64,000 nt of DNA from contig NZ_RKLP01000004.1 of NCBI RefSeq assembly GCF_004011865.1, positions 62,001 through 126,000 on the forward strand, in the 5' to 3' direction. The position numbers were made by a program, and so were the translations under genes. The notes below the pieces were generated by a model that did not search any database, was not told the origin of the DNA, and saw nothing but the letters and a program-made list of their open reading frames with translations. Positions 56,718-61,305 of the stretch are shown piece by piece. The first letter of the stretch is position 1. The number at the start of each line of letters is the position of its first letter. The stretch is from Prescottella agglutinans. GTDB taxonomy: Bacteria; Actinomycetota; Actinomycetes; Mycobacteriales; Mycobacteriaceae.

Positions 56718-57650
56718 TCAGGTTCGATCCGCGAGGACTCCCGCCGGTGCGACGTCCCGCAGCAACCCGGCCAACTGCATGTACCCGTCGGCGCGGCCGC
56801 TCGACGCCCGGAACACGAGGCCGATCGTGCGCCCCGGTGCCGGGCTCGAGAACCGAGCCGTGGCCAGATCGCCGCGCCTCGTCTCGATGTCGACGGCCGA
56901 CTCCGGGACCAGGGTCACACCCAATCCCCCTGCGACGCACTGCACCACGGTCGCCAACGACGTCGCCCGGGTGTCGCCGGACAGCGGGTGCGCGTCGACG
57001 GATCGGCACAGATCCAGCGTTTGGTCACGCAGGCAGTGACCCTCGTCGAGGAGCAGCAGGGGCAGCTCGTCGAGCACGGTGAGCGGCAGGTCGTCGCGGC
57101 CGGCGAAGGCATGGTCCTTGGGCAGGACGACCACGAAATCCTCCTTGTACAGGGGAATTTCGATGAGTCCGGGCGCCTCGGAGGGCAGCGCCAGCACTGC
57201 GACGTCGATCGCACCGGTCCGCAGCGACTCGATCAGCCGCGCGGTCTGGTCCTCGATGACCTGAGGAACCAGCGCGGGCATCTCGCGACGCAGTGCGGGC
57301 AGCAGGGCCGGCAGCACGTAGGGAGCGACGGTCGGGATCAACCCGACCCGCAGGGGTCCCACCAGCTTGTCACCGACCCCGGCCGCGGCGGCGACGAAAC
57401 CGTCTGCCGCATCGAGGATCAGCTTCGCCTGCGTGAGCAGCTGCTCACCGGCCGACGTGACGAGGACCCTGCGGGTGCTGCGTTCGATCAACTGCACCCC
57501 CAGGCCGTTCTCGAGCGACGCGAGCGCCTGGGAGAGGGTGGGCTGACTCACACTCAGACGCGCTGCGGCGGTGCCGAAGTGGCGATATTCGGCCACCGCG
57601 ACGAAGGCGCGCAGCTGCGACAGTGTTGGTTGGTAGGTCCCATCAGCCAT
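56718..57650 (-). CDS. oxyR: Peroxide sensor OxyR (LysR family)
   Basis: 310 residues from ATG 57650. The winged helix lies at ~10-65 (F-G-T-A-A-A-R-L-S-V-S-Q-P-T-L-S). The redox pair is Cys206 and Cys215 in G-H-C-L-R-D-Q-T-L-D-L-C, matching the E. coli C199/C208 segment, so disulphide switching is expected. It diverges from an ahpC-like gene over an 81-base region, as in mycobacteria, where M. tuberculosis has a broken oxyR; this copy is intact. Confidence 0.93.
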   Translation of the reverse strand: MADGTYQPTLSQLRAFVAVAEYRHFGTAAARLSVSQPTLSQALASLENGLGVQLIERSTRRVLVTSAGEQLLTQAKLILDAADGFVAAAAGVGDKLVGPLRVGLIPTVAPYVLPALLPALRREMPALVPQVIEDQTARLIESLRTGAIDVAVLALPSEAPGLIEIPLYKEDFVVVLPKDHAFAGRDDLPLTVLDELPLLLLDEGHCLRDQTLDLCRSVDAHPLSGDTRATSLATVVQCVAGGLGVTLVPESAVDIETRRGDLATARFSSPAPGRTIGLVFRASSGRADGYMQLAGLLRDVAPAGVLADRT

Positions 57651-57731
57651 ACCTATCAGTATAGTGCCACCTATCACCTTTACCTTTCGAGAGGTCGTGA
57701 GCACGACGTGGCGCCCGCACGCCTACCCGCT
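57651..57731. promoter_or_regulatory. oxyR-ahpC-like intergenic control region
   Basis: ACCTATCA occurs twice (57651-57658, 57669-57676), 18 bases apart, and ATAG-N6-CTAT (57661-57674) gives a partial dyad near the OxyR consensus (ATAG-N7-CTAT). TATCACCTTT at ~57672 recalls the M. tuberculosis ahpC promoter. Likely OxyR site; not proven. Confidence 0.5.
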
Positions 57732-58340
57732 ATGCACGGCCACAGGAAGCACGGACGACACGCGACCCCGCTGACCATCGGCGACCAGTTCCCCACCTAT
57801 AACCTCAGGGCGGTCGTCGGCGGCAACCTGTCCACCGTCGAGGCTCGTCGGCCCGACGACTACTTCACCCCGGTCACCAGCGACGATTACGCCGGCAAGT
57901 GGCGGATCGTGACGTTCTGGCCCGAGGACTTCGCCGCCGCGTGCCCGGACGAGGTCGCCGCATTCGGCGGGCTGTACGACGCGTTCGCCGATCGCGGCGC
58001 CCAGGTGCTCGGTGTCTCCGTCGACGACGAGTTCGCGCACCTCCGGTGGCGCGCACGACACGAGGCCCTGAAGTTCATTCCGTTCCCGATGCTCTCGGAC
58101 CCCGAGCGCGAACTGACGGCGGCCACCGGCGGCCTGAACGCCGACGGTTTCGCCGAGCGCGCCACCTTCATCGTCGACCCGGACAACGAGATCCGGTTCG
58201 TGTCGGTCGGCACGGGTTTCGCGGGCCGCGACGTCGACGAGGCTCTGCGCACCCTCGACGCCCTGCAGTCCGCCGGCAACCCCGGAAATGCGCGTCGACA
58301 CGCAACCGCGCCGGGCGGGCTTCCGCCGGTCCGGGGATAG
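57732..58340 (+). CDS. Degenerate AhpC-like peroxiredoxin
   Basis: 202 residues from ATG 57732 (in-frame GTG 57708 is possible). Strong AhpC similarity runs from residue ~13 (L-T-I-G-D-Q-F-P-T-Y-N-L, N-A-D-G-F-A-E-R-A-T-F-I-V-D-P). The peroxidatic Cys is kept (Cys71, P-E-D-F-A-A-A-C-P-D-E), but the usual Thr three residues before it is Ala. After L-D-A-L-Q-S the C-terminus diverges: the C-x-C resolving residues of mycobacterial AhpC are absent, and no other Cys exists in the protein. No ahpD follows; PhzF starts ten bases later. It may be a 1-Cys or non-catalytic form. An unusual His/Arg-rich N-terminus (M-H-G-H-R-K-H-G-R-H). Confidence 0.85.
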   Translation: MHGHRKHGRHATPLTIGDQFPTYNLRAVVGGNLSTVEARRPDDYFTPVTSDDYAGKWRIVTFWPEDFAAACPDEVAAFGGLYDAFADRGAQVLGVSVDDEFAHLRWRARHEALKFIPFPMLSDPERELTAATGGLNADGFAERATFIVDPDNEIRFVSVGTGFAGRDVDEALRTLDALQSAGNPGNARRHATAPGGLPPVRG

Positions 58341-58350
58341 CCTGAGCCGC

Positions 58351-59034
58351 ATGGCAGTCGAGGTCCACGTCGTCCGCGTCTCCTCCGGCCCCGACGGCAA
58401 GCACGGCAATCCGCTCGGCATCGTCGACGCGGCGGCCGTCGTCGATGATGCCGAGCGTCAGGCCCTGGCGAAGCATCTCGGCTTCAGCGAGACGGTGTTC
58501 GTCGATCTCCCCGATCCGGGCACGCGCACCGCTCGTGCCCGGATCTTCACCCCGGCCGCCGAACTCCCGTTCGCCGGTCATCCGACCGTCGGTCTCGCGT
58601 GGTGGCTCGACGACAACGGCCTCGCGGTCGACGCGCTCGAGGTACCGGCCGGCCGGGTCGAGACACGCGCACGCCACGGCGCGACTTGGGTTCGCTCACA
58701 GCCGGATTGGGCTCCGGAGTTCACGATCCACCCGATGCCGCACGTCGAGGACGTCGTGCACGCCCGGGCCCACGACTTCACCAGCGGGCACCACTACGTC
58801 TGGGCATGGGAGGACGAGCTCGAGGGCCGAATCAGGTCCCGGATGTTCGCCCCCGACCTCGGCATCGCGGAGGACGAGGCGACCGGGTCGGCGGCCGTGC
58901 GGATCACCGCACACCTGCGGCGGGCGCTGCTCATCGTCCAGGGACGCGGCTCGCGGATCCACACGACGTGGGGCGACGACGGCACCGTCGAGATCGGCGG
59001 CCTGGTCCGGGCCGAGCGCCGGATCGTCGCCTGA
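58351..59034 (+). CDS. PhzF-family isomerase-like protein (Rv2716-like)
   Basis: 227 residues from ATG 58351. PhzF/DapF fold marks: G-N-P-L-G-I-V-D near 22-29, the acidic catalytic region S-E-T-V-F-V near 49, F-T-P-A-A-E-L-P-F-A-G-H-P-T near 67-80 and E-D-E-A-T-G-S-A-A near 172-180 (the D/E-x-A-T-G-S-A signature). Shorter than the usual ~260-300, like the mycobacterial protein. Isomerase activity is inferred; the substrate is unknown. It lies ten bases after the AhpC-like gene. Confidence 0.87.
   Translation: MAVEVHVVRVSSGPDGKHGNPLGIVDAAAVVDDAERQALAKHLGFSETVFVDLPDPGTRTARARIFTPAAELPFAGHPTVGLAWWLDDNGLAVDALEVPAGRVETRARHGATWVRSQPDWAPEFTIHPMPHVEDVVHARAHDFTSGHHYVWAWEDELEGRIRSRMFAPDLGIAEDEATGSAAVRITAHLRRALLIVQGRGSRIHTTWGDDGTVEIGGLVRAERRIVA

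Positions 59035-60350: not shown

Positions 60351-61305
<955 letters not shown>

Follow-up and report, generated by a model that had tools for sequence, protein, structure and literature searches.

An ahpC-like open frame beside a retained oxyR in Prescottella agglutinans as a probable relic of an AhpCD system replaced by AhpCF

In this study, a 64,000-nucleotide stretch of Prescottella agglutinans DNA (the window), part of a 5.43-Mb genome of 22 contigs rated 100% complete (G000), was compared with 13 congeners, giving a genus sample of 14 genomes. An open frame at 57732-58340 is real and AhpC-like, as a sequence-only reading had observed, and comparison with its relatives makes it very probable that the frame is an abandoned ahpC in early decay, in a lineage where the ahpCD locus has been replaced by ahpCF and oxyR has been retained. 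Intact congeners carry a divergent oxyR followed by ahpC and ahpD; by comparison, this lineage has lost the ahpC start codon together with its ribosome-binding site, a portion of the promoter spacer and the active-site Thr, and a single gap of about 615 bp accounts for both the C-x-C and the whole of ahpD. AhpCF may have taken over the peroxidase task with AhpF as the reductant of AhpC in the place of AhpD, as is the case in AhpCF systems, and this takeover would have removed selection on ahpCD. The remnant is probably decaying because another version of the enzyme system exists elsewhere in the genome, and OxyR may have been kept because ahpCF and other targets are now under its control. Stops seldom arise in G+C-rich DNA, and this, along with a recent onset of decay, may be why the frame is still open. 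The relic itself would be ordinary gene decay, and the swap of AhpCD for AhpCF, of which it may capture an intermediate step, is the more interesting context; such an open frame should not be annotated as a working peroxiredoxin.

With reference to the protein sequence, the product belongs to the AhpC/TSA family by its PF00578 match (Table 1), and its best solved-structure matches, 7bz6 and 2bmx, are both alkyl hydroperoxide reductase C, which we take to be M. tuberculosis AhpC. The structure match stops at query residue 181, and intact AhpC can be aligned with the frame only to its residue 170, short of the C-terminal C-x-C region. Cys71 and the Pro of the active-site motif are kept, and the P-x3-T-x2-C motif reads PEDFAAAC (PEDFAAACPDE), with Ala in the place of Thr. 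The product ends in ...LDALQSAGNPGNARRHATAPGGLPPVRG, a cysteine-free tail without the C-x-C, the resolving cysteines having lain in the missing span together with ahpD. No AhpD over the TIGR00777 cut-off was found in the entire genome, in which the wider CMD family PF02627 gave ten matches, nine of them over cut-off. The kept Cys71, the altered motif, the cysteine-free tail and the missing ahpD had been pointed out by the sequence-only reading, and they hold, as does its picture of an intact sensor beside an altered target, with oxyR normal next to a frame that has lost Thr, C-x-C and ahpD. OxyR has cysteines at positions 206, 215 and 238, all retained in the 14 genus genomes, and its PRK11151 match has an E-value of 5.8e-75 and a score of 252 bits, below the 329-bit cut-off of that model. 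One detail had to be corrected: the ATG taken as the start of the frame is not ancestral, the ancestral start lying at 57762-57764, where no start codon remains. The gene order in the window is oxyR, AhpC-like frame, PhzF-like gene. Farther along, at 60351-61142 on the minus strand, the window encodes a transglycosylase-like protein with LysM (PF06737, PF01476), a homologue of which lies near the locus in 11 of the 13 congener stretches, with none matched in G011 and G013.

Table 1. Coordinates of the features at the oxyR locus of the window.
Feature	Position	Strand	Basis or remark
oxyR, intact, 310 aa read from MADG	56718..57650	-	OxyR PRK11151 best NCBIfam match
oxyR-ahpC spacer	57651..57761	.	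111 bp vs 145-198 bp in 7 intact congeners
AhpC-like open frame	57732..58340	+	202 aa, sole Cys = Cys71; PF00578 E 2.5e-31
Probable ahpC relic body (codons 1-170 of intact congener ahpC)	57762..58271	+	congener comparison
Tail codons, from former intergenic DNA upstream of PhzF-like gene	58272..58340	+	spacer alignment, shuffles
PhzF-like gene	58351..59034	+	PF02567 E 1.6e-29; 86-88% identical to G002/G005

During comparison within the genus, oxyR was found at its old place in all 14 genomes, also where the neighbouring ahpC has gone. An intact ahpC stands beside it in 7 of the 13 congeners (G001, G007, G008, G010-G013), in the order oxyR (divergent), ahpC, ahpD; all seven AhpC proteins have 195 aa, the PKDFTFVCPTE motif and a CACNW end, and immediately downstream of each of the seven genes lies an AhpD over the curated cut-off. 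Orthologues with the normal motif, whose occurrence in close strains the sequence-only reading had counted against itself, do therefore exist. Five of these seven (G007, G010-G013) carry a PhzF-like gene after ahpD; in G001 it is reduced to a 33-residue remnant, and in the fetched locus of G008 none was found. In the closest relatives of the window's genome, G002 and G005 (two-gene tree, support 100), 111 and 165 bp separate the start of oxyR from that of the PhzF-like gene, and nothing between the two genes matches ahpC; in G004, oxyR likewise adjoins the PhzF-like gene without ahpC, and at the oxyR locus of G003, G006 and G009 both ahpC and the PhzF-like gene are absent. The proposal that the Ala form without resolving Cys might be a conserved clade is not supported, because among the eight genus genomes with such an ahpC beside oxyR only the window's copy is altered, and Thr and C-x-C are both present in 35 of 35 named loci fetched. 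The altered form was also not found among 201 family genomes, where the other matches were at most 72% identical and ended at residue 180-185, nor on plasmids, where the best among the 12 of 397 records listed reached 68.5%, in collections from which the records closest to the window's genome, and hence other strains of the species, may be missing.

Compared with the intact orthologues, lesions are found in the start, the control region and the coding part, as is characteristic of a pseudogene. The relic body has no stops and no indels over 170 codons, has lost the ancestral start codon, and is 69-71% identical in amino acids to the seven intact congener genes, six of which are 95-99% identical to the seventh, that of G012. 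In the shortened oxyR-ahpC spacer, the ahpC-proximal part and the AGGAGG ribosome-binding site are gone and the oxyR-proximal CCTATCAGTRTAG...CCTATC is retained. The distance between codon 171 of ahpC and the start of the PhzF-like gene is 694 bp in G007 versus 79 bp here. Relative to G007, a deletion of about 615 bp has thus removed the last 25 ahpC codons, including the C-x-C, and the entire ahpD. The tail DNA matches the oxyR-phzF spacers of G005 (54 of 65 aligned bases identical, score 71 versus a maximum of 43 in 500 shuffles) and G002 (50 of 64 bases, score 62 versus a shuffle maximum of 31), as well as the ahpD-phzF spacer of G007 (52 of 68 bases, score 35 versus a shuffle maximum of 29); against the ahpC end and ahpD of G007 there was no match beyond shuffles (score 24, shuffle mean 25). 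Since the tail resembles the spacer on the PhzF side and not the end of ahpC or ahpD, the cysteine-free tail is spacer DNA that came to be read by chance after the deletion. A frameshift artefact near 58275-58300 that would restore the C-x-C, raised by the sequence-only reading, was looked for and is not supported: an ELCxCNW-like end is absent from all three forward frames, the alignment with intact AhpC goes no farther than residue 170, and the tail DNA matches the phzF spacer.

An intact E. coli-type ahpC-ahpF pair (AhpF by TIGR03140) was disclosed in the same genome at C12:562840-565073, its AhpC belonging to a different subfamily and being 34% identical to the window protein. The search for another ahpCD that had been recommended was answered in two ways, with no AhpD over cut-off and an intact ahpC-ahpF pair elsewhere. 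Within the genus, AhpF over cut-off occurs in 7 of 14 genomes, plus G002 with its AhpF in two pieces, and AhpD in 7 of 14; both are found together only in G008, and no genome is without both. All seven genomes without AhpD have AhpF (that of G002 in two pieces), and all seven with AhpD have an intact ahpC. The two pieces in G002 are overlapping adjacent frames (C1:5203095-5204641), which may be a sequencing error because this genome is rated 79% complete. Across the 201 family genomes, AhpD was recorded in 126, AhpF in 34 (33 over cut-off and G002), both in one (G008) and neither in 42, an exclusion with a Fisher P of 7e-16 when relatedness is ignored. Eight genera (g1, g3, g6, g9, g21, g23, g27 and g30) contain sampled species with AhpD and others with AhpF, and together with the near-exclusion this suggests repeated replacement. 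A class-wide sample of 296 genomes, with AhpD in 64, AhpF in 13 and both in none, gives weak support because only about three co-occurrences are expected by chance. Among the 201 family genomes, only G000 and G017 have a window-type AhpC (E up to 1e-40) but no AhpD; in the latter, a 1.9-Mb genome, this AhpC lies at C1:169505-170047 with 51% identity and no AhpD over cut-off. No title describing a swap of AhpCD for AhpCF in this group was found in the open-access library that was searched.

Moreover, a conserved OxyR-like site is present 107-110 bp before the ahpCF start in 7 of 7 loci examined, with G009 left out, matching the E. coli OxyR consensus at 14-16 of 20 positions and scoring higher than anything upstream of oxyR itself. 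Simulated sequences scored about 10 on average, with maxima of 13-15 (200 each), and the G003 ahpCF site only equals its maximum. In the window's own genome (C12:558000-568000), the site lies 107 bp before the ahpC of ahpCF. Upstream of oxyR, matches to the same consensus did not surpass the simulated maximum in any of the 14 genomes, and control of the old oxyR-ahpC site by OxyR is not supported by that motif since no score there exceeded chance. The ahpCF sites suggest, from sequence, that OxyR may control ahpCF.

Again, the rate of change sets the window gene apart. Over 170 codons it differs from the seven intact genes by.153-.176,.165-.182 and.235-.282 at codon positions 1, 2 and 3, versus.006-.047, 0-.018 and.035-.241 among the intact genes, so that its change at positions 1 and 2 is more than three and more than nine times that of the most different intact pair; 93 substitutions separate codons 2-170 from the congener majority. 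A codon model gave a dN/dS of 0.116 on the window branch versus 0.019 in the background, six times higher (2dlnL 18.4), and this whole-branch average is significantly below 1 (2dlnL 48.2). That plain value first suggested retained selection; a two-phase model fits better, with a loose bound on its second phase, so that the rate tests leave room for residual constraint. With a constrained phase followed by a neutral one, the window branch reached a lnL of -1326.9 versus -1336.1 for one altered rate; fitted free, the second-phase dN/dS is 1.1, loosely bounded, with 0.2-3 lying within 1.4 lnL units, and the cost of letting stops arise at the neutral rate is only 0.8. For OxyR from this genome, the branch displays no neutral phase (2dlnL 1.7), and the intact branches of G008, G013 and G010 gave fitted neutral phases of 0.0007-0.0036 versus 0.085 for the window. 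The two-phase statistic is uncalibrated, because the intact branches of G008 and G013 themselves gave 2dlnL of 4.2 and 10.7; a fourth control, G007, did not converge, had a likelihood below that of the nested model and carries no weight. These fits assume a branching order whose inner nodes are weak (two-gene tree support 32-39), and their codon frequencies come from eight genes in the single-rate fit versus seven in the two-phase fit, a small mismatch.

Considering the other possible explanations, the frame might still be translated, from the upstream ATG or from a GTG, into a protein that keeps the AhpC fold in remodelled form and has given up classical peroxidase chemistry, such as a chaperone, a thiol sensor or a structural subunit needing neither AhpD nor a resolving Cys. 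The open frame without indels would be in line with this, as would the retention of Cys71 and the motif Pro and the fact that a second-phase dN/dS of 0.2 falls within the fit range. The changes are also milder than random, with 49 amino-acid changes versus a mean of 64.9 under neutral reshuffling (0 of 5000 as low), a BLOSUM62 mean of -0.06 versus -0.52 (8 of 5000 as high) and a family-profile score of -2.5 versus -3.2 (0 of 5000 as high). An early constrained phase may account for the change count and less well for the conservatism, which leaves room for a slower relaxation. The stop-free and indel-free frame is only mild evidence for function, because a frame free of stops had a probability of 0.35 under reshuffling and nearby spacers hold few indels (6 per 142 substitutions, with G002 and G005 treated as independent and two tail-spacer alignments unanchored). 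Against translation stand the loss of the ancestral start codon and ribosome-binding site, the shortened spacer and a tail of read-through spacer DNA; moreover, the gene is absent from the nearest relatives, and no other match in 201 family genomes exceeds 72% identity. We thus regard a remodelled protein as unlikely, and it seems quite unlikely that the frame is a living intermediate, that is, a translated, catalytically dead AhpC-fold protein kept for a role other than peroxidase in a lineage where AhpCF has taken the place of AhpCD and OxyR has stayed.

A 1-Cys peroxiredoxin, in which Cys71 would reduce peroxide and another thiol would recycle it, agrees with the sole cysteine being the peroxidatic one, and such enzymes exist. 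They keep Thr and Cys without a resolving Cys; here the resolving Cys is absent and Thr is lost too. The Thr of P-x3-T-x2-C positions the peroxidatic Cys, and with it replaced by Ala and the start signals gone, peroxidase activity of this kind is very unlikely; besides the intact AhpC-AhpF pair, the genome furthermore encodes other proteins of the AhpC/TSA family, some of them AhpE-like and Bcp-like by eye. A sequencing or assembly error, judged from the assembly alone, had nothing in its favour and is hardly credible given the substitutions spread over codons 2-170, the missing span, a normal flanking oxyR and the absence of AhpD from an entire genome of such rated completeness. Among the options that had been left side by side (1-Cys enzyme, sensor or chaperone, decaying gene), the evidence favours a decaying gene.

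In comparison with known systems, the window gene occupies the same place by a divergent oxyR as actinobacterial AhpC/AhpD (2bmx, 7bz6 and the congener ahpC), is homologous to it over 170 codons and keeps the peroxidatic Cys, whereas its partner ahpD is gone, as are the Thr, the C-x-C, the start codon with the ribosome-binding site, and a portion of the promoter spacer. In M. tuberculosis, an oxyR pseudogene stands beside an intact ahpC. One half of the pair has likewise decayed there, in a mirror image of the window, which keeps an intact regulator beside an enzyme gene that has probably decayed. The E. coli-type AhpC-AhpF of the same genome (G000:C12:562840-565073) is likewise an alkyl hydroperoxide reductase system, but it differs from the window locus in its AhpC subfamily and in having AhpF as the reductase instead of AhpD.
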